In this document: positions 19,603 through 37,373 of the stretch, piece by piece
Layout: the number at the start of each line of letters is the position of its first letter
Numbering within the stretch: position 1 is the stretch's first letter
Source: Plicaturopsis crispa FD-325 SS-3
Lineage: Eukaryota; Basidiomycota; Agaricomycetes; Amylocorticiales; Amylocorticiaceae
Assembly (NCBI GenBank): GCA_000827205.1
Contig: KN832563.1
Span: forward strand, 1,126,863 to 1,190,862
Direction: 5' to 3'
Length of the DNA stretch: 64,000 nucleotides
Notes under the pieces: model-generated
What the model saw: the letters and a program-made list of their open reading frames with translations, nothing else
Told to the model about the DNA's origin: nothing
Database searches by the model: none
Program-made: the position numbers and the translations under genes

Positions 19603-20577
19603 GGTGGTGGTCGTTGTGGACAAGGCAGGGAGCGCGTGTTCGGGACGGTGGCGGTGGGAAGGAAGGCGAAGAAGGCGGGCGTACTAAAGATTTGTCATCT
19701 GATAAGATTGCGTTCAATGCATCGGTGTGGCGCTGCGGAGACTTGGGAAACTTGAGCTTGGGAGACATGGTATGTTTGTAGGTTGGCAAATTGTGAATAA
19801 TAGGTGTATTTGTGGTTTATGATGATACATGAGTAGTAATGAGGGGTTTTGAAGGTTTCGAGGCTAAGTAGTAACATCCCCGACTCTTGGAACAAGAGAG
19901 GGTTGTGTCGGCAAGAAACGTAGAAACGTCGATTGCAGCTCAACCCGTGTGAAGATTACATAAGATGCCCCTATGTCCAGTACTCTGACTCCCGCGCGTC
20001 GTCTGCTCGTCGTCGACGCCGCAGCTCCGACGTACGTTCTGTACTTCAATAACGCCACGTTATGCCACATCATAGAACTGCAACTGCGTCTCCTAAATAT
20101 CACTTTAAACCCAGTCGAGCAGGCATTGACACACATCCCGCGCTAATCTGGACAGCGCTTACATTGTGATCGCTCGACGCCGCGGACTCCGTGTCGACTG
20201 CACTCACTTGTACACATTTACGGTCTCTGGATGTTGCCGTTCATACAAAAAAAAATCAGCACGCATTCGAGGACAAGGACAATGACTGCCGACACTGCGA
20301 CGTGTTCGTACGAAATGCGTAGGCGCGTCCAGTCTCTGTGCTCCCGGGCCGCTATTAACTTTTTGTGGCACTAACGCCTCAGGTCCTCACGTAGGTCCTT
20401 ATTCATGCTCTAGTTGAAGTATTTGAATGTTCTGTGTGTGGACAATGTTGACAGAGAAACAGCGTTGAATGTAGTGCTGCTACTTGGATGGTTGTAGTCT
20501 GTTGTAGTGTGCTGCCTCGGTGCTACCTTAGACTACAGCAATTTCAGTCAAGGTGTGGTGTGATGCGTCGCGGACGA
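19603..20577. other. SFH5 promoter side and gene-free stretch up to the gap
   Basis: This region contains an upstream ORF on the reverse strand (19544-19768, beginning MSPKLKFPKSPQRHTDALNA) that overlaps the SFH5 start. Beyond it no coding signal was seen on either strand. The stretch ends in the assembly gap, so a gene could be cut by it. Confidence 0.4.
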
Positions 20578-21474
20578 NNNNNNNNNNNNNNNNNNNNNNN
20601 NNNNNNNNNNNNNNNNNNNNNNNNNNNNNNNNNNNNNNNNNNNNNNNNNNNNNNNNNNNNNNNNNNNNNNNNNNNNNNNNNNNNNNNNNNNNNNNNNNNN
20701 NNNNNNNNNNNNNNNNNNNNNNNNNNNNNNNNNNNNNNNNNNNNNNNNNNNNNNNNNNNNNNNNNNNNNNNNNNNNNNNNNNNNNNNNNNNNNNNNNNNN
20801 NNNNNNNNNNNNNNNNNNNNNNNNNNNNNNNNNNNNNNNNNNNNNNNNNNNNNNNNNNNNNNNNNNNNNNNNNNNNNNNNNNNNNNNNNNNNNNNNNNNN
20901 NNNNNNNNNNNNNNNNNNNNNNNNNNNNNNNNNNNNNNNNNNNNNNNNNNNNNNNNNNNNNNNNNNNNNNNNNNNNNNNNNNNNNNNNNNNNNNNNNNNN
21001 NNNNNNNNNNNNNNNNNNNNNNNNNNNNNNNNNNNNNNNNNNNNNNNNNNNNNNNNNNNNNNNNNNNNNNNNNNNNNNNNNNNNNNNNNNNNNNNNNNNN
21101 NNNNNNNNNNNNNNNNNNNNNNNNNNNNNNNNNNNNNNNNNNNNNNNNNNNNNNNNNNNNNNNNNNNNNNNNNNNNNNNNNNNNNNNNNNNNNNNNNNNN
21201 NNNNNNNNNNNNNNNNNNNNNNNNNNNNNNNNNNNNNNNNNNNNNNNNNNNNNNNNNNNNNNNNNNNNNNNNNNNNNNNNNNNNNNNNNNNNNNNNNNNN
21301 NNNNNNNNNNNNNNNNNNNNNNNNNNNNNNNNNNNNNNNNNNNNNNNNNNNNNNNNNNNNNNNNNNNNNNNNNNNNNNNNNNNNNNNNNNNNNNNNNNNN
21401 NNNNNNNNNNNNNNNNNNNNNNNNNNNNNNNNNNNNNNNNNNNNNNNNNNNNNNNNNNNNNNNNNNNNNNNNNN
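20578..21474. other. Assembly gap (897 N)
   Basis: A run of N directly precedes the foldback element. Repetitive sequence is the usual cause of such gaps, so further copies of mobile DNA may be hidden here. Confidence 0.99.
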
Positions 21475-21498
21475 GGTTGACCAGGGTAAACGGATAAA

Positions 21499-21893
21499 CA
21501 CAAGGCGTGGCGCCAAGTTTTAGGCTCCCAAAATTGTGCCCAAAATATAGAGCAAATATCAAGTTTTTGGGTGACGTTTTGGGAGTCAAAAAGAATAGGT
21601 TTTGGTACAGCAACATTCATCCCAAAAGGAACAGGGCTGGCTTCCCAAAATCTTACATTTCGCGCCCGCGAAAGGCTGCGGGAGCGCGAAAGATTATCTT
21701 TTGGGGCTAGCCGAGCCTTTCGCGGGCGCAAAATGTAAGCTTTTGGGATCGCTGAAAGGGAAGATTTTGGGTGGCGTCCTGGCGTGCCAAAAGGAAAGAT
21801 TTTGGGGCCGAAACACCTCACCCTATATATTTCTTTTTGGCACCGATTTTGGGTATAATTTTGGGAGCCCAAAATTTAGCGCCACCCCTTGTG
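21499..21893. mobile_element. Foldback MITE-like DNA element, 395 bases
   Basis: Terminal inverted repeats of about 48 bases are visible. The left end cacaaggcgtggcgccaag and the reverse complement of the right end cacaaggggtggcgctaaa match with few differences and continue through ggctcccaaaatt. A second, inner inverted repeat of 34 bases pairs 21644-21677 with 21714-21747 (core gcgcccgcgaaaggct). The strings TTTTGGG/CCCAAAA occur more than a dozen times. The flanks are aaa on both sides, so a 3-base target duplication is possible. There is no coding capacity, hence a non-autonomous element; its superfamily cannot be named from this sequence. Confidence 0.8.
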
Positions 21894-23379
21894 AAAAGGC
21901 CATAATCCAAGCGGTCCGGCCGGATGATTCAGAATCCTAAGATGATTGCGGGTTCCGTCGCAAAGAGTGGTCATAGTGGCGACGGGCATATCCTGGGCGC
22001 TCTGCTGAACAGAGGGCATACGGGCTCATGTCGAAGTGAGGGTTGTGTGGGGGATCAGATAATACACTGGATATAAGTCCGAAGGCACGGATAGAATTCG
22101 GAGGTGCTCACCGCATCAATAGCGTCTTCAATAGCACGCTTCGGTACCTGGGCACCTGACTCGCACAGGCGGATGACATACCACCTCAACGGAGAATATT
22201 TCCCGAGTAGCTCTCAGGCTTCAGCATCTATGGTCGGTTTAAGTGTGCCTTTGGGTCAAAGCGGGCGGTAACCTCGAGGCAAAGGCAAAGTGGGTATTAA
22301 GTCCGCGGGATGCCAGTAAACGGTTGATCTAGCGTCGTGCGCAGCGCAGTGTTGGGCGTTCTCTACGCGTCGCCTCTGAGCACACTGTGTGTGGCTCTGC
22401 CTAGTCAATTATCGTACGACTCGATGGATTTGTAGATGACGAAGACTTGACCAATGGTTGTTCGTGTCGTTCTCCGCTCTGCCTGCCGCATGGGCCGCTG
22501 CCAATTCATGTAAGAGTCTGCGGCTGCGACGTCCTTGGTTACTAGCGGGTGTAGAATCATCAGTTGTCGCTGTGTTATCGTTGGGCTACCGCAAACGATG
22601 TGGACCGACCGGCGACAGCTATTGTATGTAGCCCATCAGGACCGAGGAAAAAATCGAACTCCTTGAAGAGCAGTATCACGTTGCACAGAGCAACGTGTAC
22701 CACCGACATGAAATTTATCCAACGGTCAGAACATGAGCTATACGTATGGGAAGGTGATACATGAACGCACCTATGCGTAAAATCAGACGCGATCCCCGGC
22801 GCGTCCACGTCACTGGGAGTGTTGGGCGAATTCGGGTAGCGGTTCAGATGCTGCCACCGGTGTCGCCCTGCGGGTTGTTGCGTTTTCTTGTGATGCAGCT
22901 AGTGTGCCCATACGTACTACGGGGTGGGAACTGGGCCGGGAATCTGCGTTCATTGAACGCAGCCAGGTTCTCGCTCGCAGTTCGCGCGATGCCTGCGGTC
23001 ACGCTCGCAAGGGGGTCCTAAGCAGCGAATGGACTGACATAGCACTGCCTGAGAGAGAGCCCCAGAAAGAGTCTAGGAGGAGTCGAGGCGGTGTGCGAGC
23101 GAGGAGTCGGATGAGCCGCGATAGCTGGAACGCGCTGGAAAGTTGAAAGGAGAATCCGAAAGAGGGGAGTAATAGCCCCTGAGTGTTTACATGACGTTTT
23201 GTACGATCTGGGCTGGTTTGCTCATGACCCCCGCCCTGTTTGACTTCAATTTCCCCGCAGTTCCCCGCTCAAAAATCACTTATTCCAGTCCGTTCCTTCT
23301 CTCTTCCCTACCACCATCTCAAAACGAGACACACACACAAAACCTAACGAAAAGCACTTGCACAAAACCTGTAGCCGCA
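21894..23379. other. Gene-free stretch
   Basis: No ORF with domain content, splice structure or coding-like codon use was found on either strand over 1.5 kb. The last ~200 bases are the presumed promoter and 5' leader of the next gene, with a pyrimidine-rich stretch and an ACACAC run. Confidence 0.45.
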
Positions 23380-30434: not shown

Positions 30435-30871
30435 CTACGCACTCGCTTCCCTGTCTCCGTCTTGAATCATCGCATGGCTAAACAGCTCCTGACGGCCCTG
30501 CCGCAGTGTGCGCGCGGCCGCGCGCAGACAGAGCGGAAAGAATCCTATCCAAAACAGTAGCCGTGAATCCACCCACCGCACAGGTGCATACATCTTAAGT
30601 TTAAACGCATTGCATGTCAACTCATGGAAGAGTTGGCAACAGTCCGATGCGGAAGGACGCTGTGCGGGATCGGAAAGTAGCATCTGTCGAACAAGAGGCT
30701 CTACGTATGGGATGCGCGACCGGATGTAGTCCTATGCCCTCGAATGATCAGCAGCGAGAACATAGGGGTAGAAGATTGTGCGCACCGTGAAAAAAAGATC
30801 GCGAAATACACATCCCAGTAAGTACACATCTGCTTTGAACGGGTCGAATGGGGTGGACCGATCTTCCGTGA

Positions 30872-33269
30872 CATCAGCAAACCTACATCTGTCTGATTCG
30901 TCTTATATGTCTGAAGCCACTGAACAGTCTGTAGTAATTATTTTCCAGACCATTCTAAGACAATTAAGACTACGAAATCGCTTTCAGAAATTAAGAGGGA
31001 GCGAAAAAAATCAGGAATTCAGAATACCACCCAAAAGATATACTACAGACATCCTTTATACATACGGGCTTTGCGCAACTAGATATATACGCGGTTCCGA
31101 AAGCTACACTGGCGTAGGTGAGTGGAACAGGAGGCATGGAACTTGAAAGACCGCAAGCTCGAAGCGCGGAGCCACAGGACCTTGCACCCGGCCGTGCGGA
31201 TGCTCGAGGTGCAGGCGTACACACAGCGGTGTGATGGCTTGCGTGCAGGGGGGATACGGAGATGCGTGAATGGGAAGAGCGAGCGTGCGGCGCAGCGTAA
31301 ATGCGGAGGGCTCAGGTGCAGCGGTAGTTTCTATACGTCGCACGAAACTGCCAGATAAGAAAAGGAGAATGGTCAGTAAGAGGAGGACGACGGGGATGAA
31401 TACTGTAGCCCACGACGGGAGGGAACCCCGGCTGGACCGTCACCGGGAGGTCATATCCCCGTCGGATGCTGGGACGGGGCTGTCATGGCACAGCCGGGAC
31501 TGGGGAAAGGGTCTTGGGGTCACCAAAGTACCCCGGGACATGATCCGGGGTGACACGGTGCTCCTAACGTGTGGTGTCTTTCGTGGTGATTTTTCTTGAG
31601 GACGTGGTGCTGGCGGTGCGCTGTCCTTTGGGTGCGAAATCGGTGGGTTGTGGGATTTCTTCGCGCTCTCGCTGGCGTCTCTGCTGTTGTTGTGGAAGAT
31701 CTGGGGGCAAGTCTGGCGGCATACGGCATAGCGCTGGCATAGCGAGAAGAGAAAATGAGACGAGAGTCGACAACGACGACGGCTCACGAACGCAAGTAGT
31801 TCAAACTCCGCTCGAATCAAAGTTCAATTGCCACGTCGACACCCTCACAGTTTACCACCGTGCGCACGTCTGTGTCTGTCGCCGTCTCTCTCAGCTTGTA
31901 CTCAAAGTGTGCTCCTTTCTGCTCCTCTTCAGTCCCGACCTAGGGCCTGGCTACCCGCAGAAGGCATGTCTGGCTGCGCACCAGGCCATGCACTATGCTT
32001 TCCTCGCCGGCATCAACGGTCGTCGTTTGACCGGCAACAGCACTCCTGCTAATGGGCTCAGTGCCCTGGGTATGTTCTCCCCTTTTGTTAATGTTCAATT
32101 TCGTGTATCTGACCATTTTCTCTAACTCATCAGTTTTCTCCGACGCGTACGACGCCATCGTGCTTTCATCGCGAAACTTCACGCCGCCACGACAGGGAAT
32201 GCCCGGTGCCGAAGACGATGCAGGACAAGAGAGGAGGAGCCGCGGGAGCTGTAGCAGCGCGACCACGAGGAACGATAAACAAGTAAGTCGCACCACTCCC
32301 ACTTGAGCGTGCGCTAGCACTCTCCGCGCCAGCCGACCACCTGATGATAGCGCCCCCTAGCAACTCCCATGCCGGCACGTACGCCAGCTCATTCCCCGGC
32401 GCGTGCCCCAAGCCTCGACGTTGCAGAACACGCACACCGCTCCATGCGAGTGCAGGCTACCCGCCGGCCAGCAAGTCCCATGCCCGCAAACGCCCCACGC
32501 CAGCGCGTTCCATCAGGCGACCCATGCCCAGTCGCTCACACACGCGCGTGCAGCGCGCGCTTCACACGAGCACACGTCAGTGCCAAACACCGGTGCGCTC
32601 CTTGCCCAGCCGTCGAAGAGCGCACCGCTCCTCTCGATCGCACGCTAACCACACAACAGCGTACACCACACGCCAGCGAACATCAGCGCGCACCACGACA
32701 TGCGCACGCTCGCGTACTCCCCACGCCGGCGCACACTAGCCGCACGCCACCATGGCTCTCGTGTCACGCCGCACGCATGCACGCTCGACACAGGGCGTGC
32801 ATACCGTGCATCTTTGTCGACGGCTAGGCGTAGGGCCAACACTGGCATGCGCTAAAGTGCGGACCGCGCGTGCCTGCACACACCCGACGCCTCGCCGTCG
32901 CATTGCCCACGGGACTTGCTTCATCCCGTCCACGCGAGATCCGCTTTCGCTTTGGAGGCGATTTCCTTACTTCGCCATGCCATAGCCCATGTAGTACTTC
33001 GTATCATGTATATTGTAATTTATATGCCTAATATAATTGATTTTAACCTACTTTTTGTGTGATCTGAGTGTATGGGCCCCCGTCTGACTGCAGATTGAAG
33101 TCTCTGGAATGGTCTGAATGTTGATCTTAAACGGTCTTATTCAGGTCTGAGCCCAGACATCGATGTCTTACTAAGAGGTACATAGCTTGATTCAGAATTT
33201 TTTCTGAGTGTCTGAAATGTCTTATTGCGCTTGGCTAAGACGATTCAGACGACTTGAGGTTTGCTGATG
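30872..33269. mobile_element. Non-autonomous DNA transposon inserted in the kinase-like gene
   Basis: The perfect 13-base terminal inverted repeat catcagcaaacct .. aggtttgctgatg extends imperfectly to ~30 bases (left gtctgattcgtctta, right complement gtctgaatcgtctta). Subterminal regions are rich in CAGAC/AAGAC/TCTGA motifs on both sides. The flanks show GA on each side, a probable 2-base target duplication; AT is an alternative if the ends are at cagcaaacct. No transposase, reverse transcriptase or other replication protein is recognisable in 2.4 kb, so it should depend on an autonomous relative elsewhere. The superfamily is not determined. The near-intact host gene halves suggest recent insertion. 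Confidence 0.75.
31933..32282 (+). other. Two exon-like pieces inside the transposon (possible captured gene fragment)
   Basis: An open stretch reads 'GYPQKACLAAHQAMHYAFLA' then 'GINGRRLTGNSTPANGLSAL'. It meets a canonical donor GTATGT at 32070 and an acceptor CAG ending at 32133, and continues in phase with 'FSDAYDAIVLSSRNFTPPRQ' to another donor-like GTAAGT at 32283. GC-rich third positions and phase continuity look like host coding sequence. The protein is not recognised, and its left boundary and start are unclear. Confidence 0.4.
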
Positions 33270-34283
33270 GACTTCGGGGACAACGTCGAGGGTCCTGTTG
33301 TTAGATAGCGGGAGCACGGGCTCACCGTCGGCGCACGCGACGGCGAGATCAAAGTCAATGTAGTAGTACTTGACTGGCCCTTGTGCGCGCACGAATCGGT
33401 CTGCATCTTGAACGTGTGCACCTTCCGGAAGGTGCGTCAAGAAGTACCATCCCCATGTATCATCTGGGTCTACGGGACGGGCATCCATCATGATGTTGCG
33501 CTTAAGAATGTCGCTAAACACGATAATGTTAAGCTCAACTTCAGTTGCATATACTGAAGAAACATACCCGTGTGCCATAGAATAGGCGTGTATGAACTCC
33601 AGGCCCTGTATGCATCGCACTCAGTCTAAAGTTAAGATGCTTTATACAGAGAAAATACGACCTCGAGTAATTGTGCTGTGAAACAGATCGCTTCCATGTT
33701 GAGAAGGAATAAAGGTTGTAACCACGTATAGAGGCGGGGCAATACGAGAAAGCCGATTTGCGGGTGCACCGAGCCATCCGGTAACAAACCGTCGAAATAC
33801 TCGATCAAAGGAACACAATGATTCCGTGGGTCGGGGCGAAGACTATCAGTATTGAAATATTCGATAAATGCCAGTTCGCGCATGTTGCTCCTGTGCTCCG
33901 TAGTGTCGGCGTAGCGCATGAGCTTGAGCATGACCTGTAAGCCATCCGAGATACGCACAGCATCCATGGCTACGTCTGCGGTCTAGAAATATATCGATAA
34001 ATTTAGGCATCATACTACGAGGGAGAGGACTGTATACCTCGGATGGTTTGCTATCTGGACATGATGCTGGGTCCGCGCCAGACTCCACCCAGGAGCCTAC
34101 CCAGCCCGGGTGATATCGGTCGCGCAGACGATAGCCTGCAATTTCCTCTAGAAACGGCTGCCAAGTAGCCCATGTATGCTCGTCCTCGGTCAATCCATAA
34201 GGGAAATTGATGTCCTGCGGCGCTTCAAGGACGCCCTGAGGTGGCGCCACATTTTCAGCACTTGGAAAATGAGTGGACTCCAT

Positions 34284-34894
34284 AGGTGAGGCAGAGATGT
34301 GCGAGGTAGCTGAAGGCGTCGAACTATGGCACAGAATTAGTCTCGCTGTAGCAGCCCGCCCACGACGTAGGGATAAAGTGCAGAACTGAGTGCAGGATTG
34401 ACGTCGCCTAGCGGCGGGCTCCTAAGTATCCACTGGCAGTCTGTAAGAAAGAAGAGATGCCACGCGGCAGGTCGCAATGAGGAACTTGACCTTGTAAGCA
34501 CGTCCTCCGCTGCCATCGTGTCTTTGCATTATGTAGTCCCCCGATTTTGTCGTGCTTAGTAGTGAACATCAAGTCGAAATTACACTGTAATGGATACACA
34601 TTTATATTGAGCGGGAGCTAGTGATCATGCATATGTACCGGCAACACCACAGAACAGTTTTTGGTGTATACTCTATAGGACAACGGAGCACTCAGAAAGC
34701 CAAGCAAGCACAAATGCAGACGCGGCGATGTGTACAGTATAAGCAAGCCTAGTAAGCCGGAGTAGAGATGAGCGACTTCAAGTTGCAAACAGACTGAAAG
34801 GCCGCGAACGAGATTCGAGTTGCTGTAAAACCTGTACCAACATAGCGGAAGGTGACAAGCGCATGGGCGTGTGGATCGTTGCAGTAGAGGGGCT
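34284..34894. other. Spacer between the kinase-like paralogues
   Basis: The stretch near 34450-34485 (gaaagaagagatgccacg..caatgaggaac) resembles the sequence near 36693-36735 upstream of the other paralogue, so the duplication seems to include 5' flank. No gene was found. Confidence 0.4.
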
Positions 34895-36374
34895 TTAGGT
34901 TACGCCACTGGCAGTGGAATGCCTATCTTCGTCATGAATCATGACATGGCTGAACAGCTCCTGACGACCATGCCGCAAAGTACGCGCGGCCGCGCGCAGA
35001 CATAGAGGAAAGAATACCAGCCAGAAAAATGTGCGAGATTCTATGCACCGCACGGGTGCATACAGCTTCAATTTGAAGGCATTGTGCGTTAGGCTGCGGA
35101 AAAGGTTGCAGCAGTCGAATATGGAAGGACGCTGAGCGGGATCCGGGATCAACATCTGTTGGACGAGAGGTTCCACGTATGGAATGCGGGACCGAATGTA
35201 GCCCTGTCGTGACGACGGTACGTACATTAGTCGCGGGAGCGTTTGCGGGAGCTACATACGCACCGTGAAGAAGGTGTCGCGAAATAAACATCCAAGCAGG
35301 TACACATCGGCCTTGAAAGGGTCAAAAGGGACGGACCCTTCCTCCACGACTTCGGGAACGTCATCTAGCGTTCTGTTATTAGGTAGCGGGAACACGGGCG
35401 TGTCGTCGAGGCAGACGGTGGCAAGATCGAAGTCGATATAGTAATATTTCACAGGTCCTTGGGCGCGCACGAACCGTTCTTCGTCGTCAATCTGGGCGCC
35501 CTCGGGTGCATGCGTCAGGAAGTACCACCCCCACCTGTCGGACGGATCTACAGGGTGTGCGTCCATCATGATATTTCGCTTGAGGATGTCCCTGATTCAC
35601 GATAACATGAGACGTCAGTCAGCAAATGTCCTCTAACGTACTTTATACATACCCGTGTGCTACACCGTAAACATGCATAAATTCTAAGCCCTGTAAGACT
35701 TTGAATTAGCGATGTGCGCAAATAACGTTCTCGTAGGAAATCCAACCTCAAGTAGTTGTGCTGTAAAACAGAGTGCCTCCGTGTTGAGGAGGAATATTGG
35801 TCGCTGCCATATGTACAGGCGCGGCAGCACAAGAAAGCCGATTTGCGGGTGCACTGAACCATCCGGTAGCATCCCATCGAAATATTCGATCAAGTGAACG
35901 CAATGGTTCCGTGGATCAGGGCGAAGGTTCTCGTCATTGAGATACTCAAGGATAGCCTTCTCACGTATATTGCACCTGTGCTCGCCTGCCTCGGTATGCC
36001 GCATGAGCTTCAGCATTACTTGTAGGCCATCCGAGATTCGCACAGCATCCATGGCTACGTCCGCTATCTAACGACACCAATATTATCATTACATATATTG
36101 GGTCAAAAGCAAAGGATGTATGTACCTCAGAAGATTTGCTATCTGGACATGTTGTCGGATCGGCGCCTGAAGCTACCCATGAGCCAACCCAGCCTAGATG
36201 ATATCTGTCGCGCAGGCGGTAGCCTGCAGATGTCTCCAGAAACGGCTGCCAAGTGACCCATGTATATTCATCCTCTGTCAGCCCATACGGGAAATTGATA
36301 TCTTGCGGTGCTTCGAGGTCGCCGGGTCCCGCCACATTTTCGAAACTTGGAAGATCACCGGACTCGGGCACCAT
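34895..36374 (-). CDS. Kinase-like protein with altered catalytic motifs
   Basis: The ATG at 36374 starts MVPESGDLPSFENVAGPGDL. The fold of a protein kinase can be followed: 'DGLQVMLKLM' (probable ATP-site lysine), 'HLIEYFDGMLPDGSVHPQIG' and 'FLVLPRLY' (hinge), 'AHGDILKRNIMMD' (catalytic loop, HGD instead of HRD, Asn kept), 'YYYIDFDLAT' (DFD instead of DFG), and 'FKADVYLLGCLF' (subdomain IX). There is an insertion between the last two blocks. The C-terminal part 'FKLKLYAPVRCIESRTFFWL' and 'VFFPLCLRAAARTLRHGRQE' has a hydrophobic, possibly membrane-touching segment. About five introns are present. Such divergent kinase-like genes are multi-copy in agaricomycetes. Whether it phosphorylates anything is open; Lys, Asp and Asn are kept, which favours some activity. 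The substrate is unknown. Confidence 0.8.
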
Positions 36375-37373
36375 CAGCTAGTGTAGGCGGTAACGGAAAT
36401 CCAGGATAAGCCTTTTGGTAGATAGGACCAGCTGTAACGGTCAATACAAAGACTAGAGAAGTACAATACGCGCGAGTTGGATCGCTGGAGTCCGATGGTG
36501 CCAACTCAAGCGACTCTGGTTTCAAATCGAGGTCTACTGACTAAGTGCGGGGGTCAGTGCCGCACAGTCAGTGCGCATTCAAGATATCGTGCGGTAACTC
36601 ACATGCTTTCTATGAATCCAGAAAAGTTGAAGGTGTGCGTAGCTGTAGTATGGTGCTATGTAAAGTGAACGTAGGCACATGCGGCCGCGTCGCGAAAGAA
36701 GTTGGAACCACGTGGGAGATCCCAATGAGGAACATGTTAGTTCGGTCGAATCAGACCTCACTGACCTTTACTCCGTGTCTGCGTTCTGTAGAGTTTGACG
36801 TTTGCCTTGCATATCTGGACGTGGTACCACTATATCAACGGAACTGCCGCCATGAAGCTGGTACATATCGTGGCAAAATCATCTCACGATCTCCGTTTGT
36901 TATAATAGTTTACCTCGATCGGGGTTGGATCGGGGTGACGACTCGTCCTTCAGCGCTCGGCGCTGAGTCTCAATAGATGACTTGCCTGGCTCCCAAGGAC
37001 TCGCGCGGATAGATGCTGTGTCAAGCTATGCATATACAGCGTACCAAATCAAGGAGATGTGTGAGTACTCTTTCGTTCTGACTCGACATTTTGTCTAGGG
37101 TGCTCTAACACTGCATTACAGTTTGTGGCGTGTTCAGCTTCGTCGGTTCATTTGTATCATTTATCAACCTCTCCGCATGACTCTTTCGATCACTTCTTTT
37201 TCCATTCCAAGAAGTAGAAGCTCTGAGCTCAACTTGAATGGATAAGATTTCGCGTCTGTGATAGTACGTGGATTTGTCGAGACTTTCATCTGCCCGAGCT
37301 AAACCGTCCCATTAGATACGTCGACCTCTTACTTATGCTGTGCCCTCAAGAGCGCCTACTCATACTTGTTCTC
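36375..37373. other. Spacer with no clear gene
   Basis: This spacer is the upstream flank of the intact kinase-like gene, partly similar to the flank of its paralogue. A 143-codon forward ORF (36545-36976) lies over that similar region and lacks coding character. A possible donor/acceptor pair (GTGAGT at 37057, ..TTACAG at 37121) might belong to 5' leader exons of the next gene. Confidence 0.35.

Follow-up and report, generated by a model that had tools for sequence, protein, structure and literature searches.

A kinase-like gene in the window, the 64,000-nucleotide stretch of Plicaturopsis crispa DNA analyzed here, is split by an insertion of 2,398 bp. The locus raises the question of what kind of element made this insertion, which enzyme would move it, and where its internal sequence came from. 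Within an assembly of 33.2 Mb in 49 contigs, whose many Plavaka and KDZ genes and intron-bearing genes point to a mushroom-type fungus, the window is part of contig C10. With a probability of about 0.92, the insertion is a non-autonomous PlavakaB cut-and-paste transposon of the CACTA/EnSpm-Mirage-Chapaev-Transib group that was mobilized in trans and thereby split the kinase-like gene.

The insertion and its empty site

The insertion extends from 30872 to 33269 and is bounded by exact CATCAGCAAACCT ends at 30872-30884 (plus strand) and 33257-33269 (minus strand), which have no other exact match within the window. When up to three mismatches are allowed, CATCAGCAAACCT has 25 matches in the window compared to a mean of 16 in shuffled sequence, a count of 25 being reached in 1 of 100 shuffles; such weak matches in the window therefore mean little. 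The inverted repeat is perfect over 13 bp and, with imperfections, extends to 34 nt (82%), giving a left terminal inverted repeat (TIR) at 30872-30905 on the plus strand and a right TIR at 33236-33269 on the minus strand. The two copies of the target site duplication (TSD), GA, flank the element at 30870-30871 and 33270-33271. Taking out the element together with one GA joins the flanks into VPEVTEDRSTPFDPF and restores a stop-free exon of 109 codons with the junction at codon 80. This exon aligns without gaps to the paralogue (VPEVVEEGSVPFDPF) at 79% amino acid identity, with the differences distributed over the codon positions as 16, 14, and 56. The first-pass annotation had described a mobile element with base-exact ends and a readable empty site, whose junction has the same length and frame as the intact paralogue; the 13-bp CATCAGCAAACCT ends, the GA duplication, and the ungapped exon alignment bear out both statements.

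The interrupted kinase-like gene

The interrupted gene is encoded on the minus strand, with its 5' part at 33272-34421 (start codon not fixed) and its 3' part at 30435-30869, ending at the stop codon at 30435-30437. The uninterrupted paralogue is located on the same strand at 34895-36377 and shows 72% DNA identity with the interrupted gene over 1,457 aligned positions. Spliced by eye, the paralogue reaches 32.5 bits against PF00069 (cut-off, 31.7), which supports the kinase-like label given earlier; a Pfam search with five single open reading frame (ORF) pieces from both kinase-like genes gave no match. The downstream exon stretch of the interrupted gene, 95 codons in length, is 75% identical to the paralogue and is also free of stops.

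Read-through from the kinase-like gene into the element meets a stop after 15 codons, at 33222-33224, and the interrupted gene is presumably inactive. This stop codon also speaks against the insertion being spliced out like an intron in a gene that still works. The added length of 2,400 bp is a multiple of three, and a plant CACTA insertion has reportedly been spliced out, but 2.4 kb would be an unusual size in fungi, whose introns are rarely that long, which makes splicing of the insertion unlikely.

Copies of the element

A second full-length copy, 96.7% identical, is found at C24:38125-40542 with its own CT duplication. Its ends are identical but its duplication is different, and the insertion in the window is therefore more than a chance arrangement. 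The two copies agree at 2,306 of 2,384 aligned positions; the differences comprise 53 transitions, of which 23 affect CpG, and 25 transversions, besides 9 indel events. On C7, a truncated copy runs from the right end only as far as element position 865, and it agrees with the window's copy at 1,465 of 1,523 positions; no left end with up to two mismatches occurs up to C7:1562000. An older relative on C18 has a length of 2,066 bp and ends that are ∼80% alike with the first base changed; it shows no clean duplication, its flanks being CT and CA. A lone left end resembling that of the window is located at C27:15520. The earlier concern that the element might be single copy with no related ends elsewhere is answered by these further ends and by the second full-length copy. 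Its proposed recent mobility holds in a relative sense only, given the 78 differing positions and the indel events between the full-length copies; on the host side, the interrupted gene shows neither stop nor frameshift across the two exon stretches compared.

The break of the C7 copy at C7:1558350 lies just inside the exon fragment described below, and beyond it the short repeat GCGACCCGCTTCGCACTTATAG occurs twice.

End type and target site duplications in the genome

The end of the window's element is CATCAGCAAACC, in contrast to CATCAGSAAAAC, the majority form among PlavakaB-type ends in this genome. CATCAGSAAAAC occurs at 99 places compared to 6 for the reversed control, while the window's 13-base end with at most one mismatch occurs at 66 places compared to 44, a much weaker excess. 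Neighboring CATCAGSAAAAC ends within 10 kb (n = 22) are facing in 18 cases, with 3 in "--" orientation, 1 in "++", and none in "-+". The sample of 20 fetched pairs comprises 17 from the 18 that face each other, the outer rather than the inner pair on C3, and another two in which one end is a variant; pairs outside this sample include C8:1355707/1359098 and the wide pairs at C15:403433 and C1:2112270. An exact 2-bp duplication flanks 18 of the 20, a 3-bp duplication flanks 1, and the last has none. With the inclusion of the pair at C9:668251 (AA), the window's element (GA), the C24 copy (CT), and the C18 relative, an exact 2-bp duplication is present in 21 of 24 cases. Sixteen of the 20 fetched pairs, spanning 1.6 to 5.8 kb, contain no Plavaka match.

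At C19:170838-176632, facing CATCAGCAAAAC ends with an AC duplication enclose 5.8 kb with no Plavaka match within. Four elements of ∼2.0 kb at C9:1325582, C2:753047, C2:991732, and C1:1681455 have ends that resemble each other closely (CATCAGGAAAACCCTGAACCGTGAATTT on one side) and their own 2-bp duplications; they are a separate non-autonomous PlavakaB-like subfamily.

Association with Plavaka transposases

The Plavaka transposase profile PF18759 has 84 matches in the genome, which were assigned manually to 37 clusters. Two facing ends within 8 kb enclose four of these clusters (on C3, C5, C7, and C10), all with a 2-bp duplication and with CATCAGSAAAAC ends, not exact CATCAGCAAACC. Of the 37, 9 have one or more facing ends within 8 kb and 4 have an outward-facing end; the rates at random places on 16 contigs are 0.0024 for two facing ends and 0.022 for one. 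One exon of the C7 element is recognized on its own as Plavaka with 86.9 bits (cut-off, 26.3). PlavakaA, decay, or variant ends may account for the Plavaka clusters without facing ends.

A second shared feature is a subterminal repeat, GTCTKA, counted on both strands. The left subterminal region (30872-31121, plus strand) contains 5 copies per 250 bp (shuffled mean, 0.30), and the right subterminal region (33020-33269, minus strand) contains 9 (shuffled mean, 0.39), with none in the middle 1,598 bp of the element; none of 300 shuffles gives counts as high on either side. The Plavaka-bearing element at C7:718962-725465 (6,504 bp) has 6 and 3 copies at its ends and 1 in the middle 5,704 bp, an element of 1,876 bp on C22 has 7 and 10 at its ends and none in the middle, and the ends adjoining the Plavaka clusters on C1 and C17 have 3 each in ∼250 bp. 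The ends and the subterminal motif are thus common to the window's element and transposase-bearing elements. The right-end arrays of the Plavaka elements on C10 and C5 are of a GTCTTG type without GTCTKA, their left ends having 2 GTCTKA each per 106 bp, and GTCTKA is absent from both ends of the Plavaka element on C3, so that these are less likely partners than those on C7, C1, and C17. Most of the short pairs lack GTCTKA, which indicates that it is characteristic of only part of the family.

Plant CACTA elements have subterminal repeats as well, and such arrays are transposase-binding sites; by analogy, the GTCTKA arrays are likely to be binding sites for the transposase. The same likeness lends something to the reading of the insertion as a non-autonomous CACTA/EnSpm element proper, with a similar general mechanism but an EnSpm transposase doing the cutting. 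A BLAST comparison (E value of 0.01) of the element with all fetched Plavaka-bearing loci gave no alignable DNA, ends included. Any of these loci is therefore only a candidate for the transposase source, and confidence in PlavakaB is slightly lower than it would be if at least the ends aligned. The putative link to the Plavaka-bearing elements is formed by the first 12 to 13 bases, the motif array, and the duplication.

Superfamily assignment

PlavakaB is a CACTA-related fungal lineage with the termini CATCA..TGATG and a TSD of 2 or 3 bp, according to the portions of Kojima 2025 (PMC12730594) used here. The element has these termini and 2-bp duplications (GA in the window and CT on C24), and ends of the same type surround PF18759 transposases in the genome. 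The assignment to PlavakaB follows from these two defining end features together with the association with PF18759. The 13-base ends and the GA duplication had been given correctly in the first-pass annotation, which could name no superfamily for them; the ends and the 2-bp duplication now supply the name. A Plavaka transposase of its own was not found in the element: the PF18759 search of the genome gave no match inside its range in the window, none of the 9 stop-to-stop ORFs of at least 100 amino acids overlapping it exceeds a Pfam cut-off, and a spliced peptide from its ORF pieces has no Pfam match. The element is therefore classed as non-autonomous.

The other candidates were PlavakaA (TGT..ACA termini and a 2-bp TSD), fungal EnSpm/CACTA proper (CAC..GTG and a 3-bp TSD in the families described), and Zisupton (8-bp TSD), as characterized in the same portions of PMC12730594; they were rejected on ends and duplication length, PlavakaA because the element lacks TGT..ACA termini. 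An EnSpm element proper would be consistent with CA..TG termini and 2- to 5-bp duplications, which that text gives as common to the whole CACTA-related group, but the CAC..GTG ends and 3-bp duplications of the described families contrast with CATCA and 2 bp here, and PF18759 domains are enclosed by the same end type, which makes this reading very improbable. Transposases of the KDZ group (Zisupton, Kyakuja, and Dileera) are abundant in the genome, with 43 matches in 31 clusters, yet none of the 31 lies between two facing ends, 2 have one facing end, and none has an outward-facing end; considering also the 8-bp duplications of Zisupton (PMC12730594, as excerpted), the probability of a KDZ derivative is negligible.

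For the PlavakaB element, a multistep mechanism can be proposed. A PlavakaB transposase produced from another locus would bind the GTCTKA subterminal repeats and cut at CATCA..TGATG, and insertion at a 2-bp staggered target would produce the GA duplication and split the kinase-like gene. The element family would have taken up a host exon fragment before the two full-length copies separated. Cross-mobilization in trans and the cutting and joining steps are inferred.

The EST1-family exon fragment

The segment at 31567-31757 (minus strand) corresponds to the start-codon exon of an EST1-family gene, with C8:1562445-1562666 as its presumed source. The match consists of two blocks at 31628-31757 (82%) and 31567-31616 (94%), with the start codon at ∼31722; they correspond to element positions 757-886 (82% over 133 bp) and 696-745 (94% over 50 bp). 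The genome search gave E values of 7.3e-30 and 2.8e-13, and ∼65 bp of the donor is missing between the blocks. On C8, a long reading frame begins with MPPESPPDIPQKQQRRQREREEIPQPTDFAAK, whereas the element reads MPPDLPPDLPQQQQRRQREREEIPQPTDFAPK followed by the gap of ∼65 bp and continues out of frame. Spliced by eye, the donor gene scores 31.9 bits against EST1_DNA_bind (cut-off, 22) over 44 of 282 profile positions; When less of the gene was used, EST1-type families stayed below the cut-off, which EST1_DNA_bind passed once a larger part was included. A Pfam search of the donor's raw ORFs gave no match at an E value of 0.01, and no solved structures were found for the part of the donor gene searched.

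The fragment of ∼190 bp is carried only by the copies on C10 and C24. The C7 copy breaks ∼20 bp inside its edge, and the C18 relative shows no match to it. Judging from this distribution, the fragment was probably gained once the C10 and C24 copies had diverged from C18 but before these two parted. The direction of transfer was presumably from gene to element. A sequence match alone has no direction, and the EST1-like stretch might instead have passed from the transposon into the gene. At C8, however, a long reading frame begins in frame with this stretch, and the EST1_DNA_bind match follows downstream, while the version in the element is frameshifted by the gap and the older C18 relative has no matching fragment, so that transfer in this reverse direction is improbable.

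Comparison with known systems

The PlavakaB elements in the available text of Kojima 2025 (PMC12730594) share with the element described here the CATCA..TGATG termini, the 2-bp TSD, and a fungal genome in which PF18759 is found between such ends; the element differs in that no transposase was found in it and in its host gene fragment. In Marasmius oreades, as far as the consulted sections of PMC8290104 extend, Plavaka is defined by pfam18759 and nonautonomous elements are classed by the TIR and TSD they have in common with autonomous families, the same logic of classification as that used here; those elements are mostly <1,000 bp, compared to 2.4 kb. As a result, a previously unplaced element can be named as PlavakaB, in one genome with a well-populated PlavakaB family that has base-precise ends and duplications, and GTCTKA subterminal repeats are tied to part of this family as likely transposase-binding sites.

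With ∼190 bp of an EST1-family exon in the copies on C10 and C24, the element is Pack-like. In line with the features that define Pack-TYPE elements, it is non-autonomous, has TIRs and a TSD, matches a coding gene, and is present in more than one copy, the fragment being in two copies only. It resembles the plant Pack-CACTA and Pack-TYPE elements in the accessible part of PMC8903248, which are likewise non-autonomous CACTA-related TIR elements with copied coding DNA inside, but it is fungal, belongs to PlavakaB, and holds a single short 5' exon fragment. Host-like coding sequence between TIRs is also found in the hAT and Tc1/Mariner transduplications of Pyrenophora tritici-repentis (PMC3538342, in part), which involve other superfamilies, whole ORFs, and families of 10 to 46 copies. 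The excerpts found from the Plavaka literature mention carried TET/JBP genes and make no mention of captured host gene fragments. The element thus provides one clear example of a PlavakaB element holding a host-exon fragment. That the short PlavakaB elements of mushroom-forming fungi form a Pack-type system, in which, with a transposase supplied in trans, they copy parts of host exons (in this case the start of an EST1-family gene) and place them in other genes like the kinase-like one, so that PlavakaB would shuffle exons in general or give rise to antisense RNA directed at the donors, is a speculative and rather doubtful extension.

Remaining interior of the element

Two ORF pieces on the plus strand at 31931-32279 (31931-32074 and 32127-32279), separated by an intron-like gap, have no Pfam match. 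In a protein search of the same genome, they match only the window, C24, and C7 copies; the C24 and C7 copies contain stops in places, and the pieces are probably no longer coding. No source was found for element positions 209-699 beyond the two full-length copies, and scanning the window for Rfam families and tRNAs gave no matches. The mostly GC-rich interior at 32242-33153 is shared at ∼62 to 84% identity with five diverged places (on C4, C27, C13, and twice on C7), with a further 62 bp to the left on C27. The fetched surroundings of these five places contain no end with fewer than two mismatches and no GTCTKA cluster. The loci C7:1610500-1615000 and C7:1655500-1660500, near stretches related to the element interior, have ∼1.25 kb in common at 67%, which is an older repeat. 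Elsewhere in the window, positions 20578-21474 are a run of N, either a gap in the assembly or a withheld stretch, which accounts for the apparent G+C content of 27.5% at 20001-22000.
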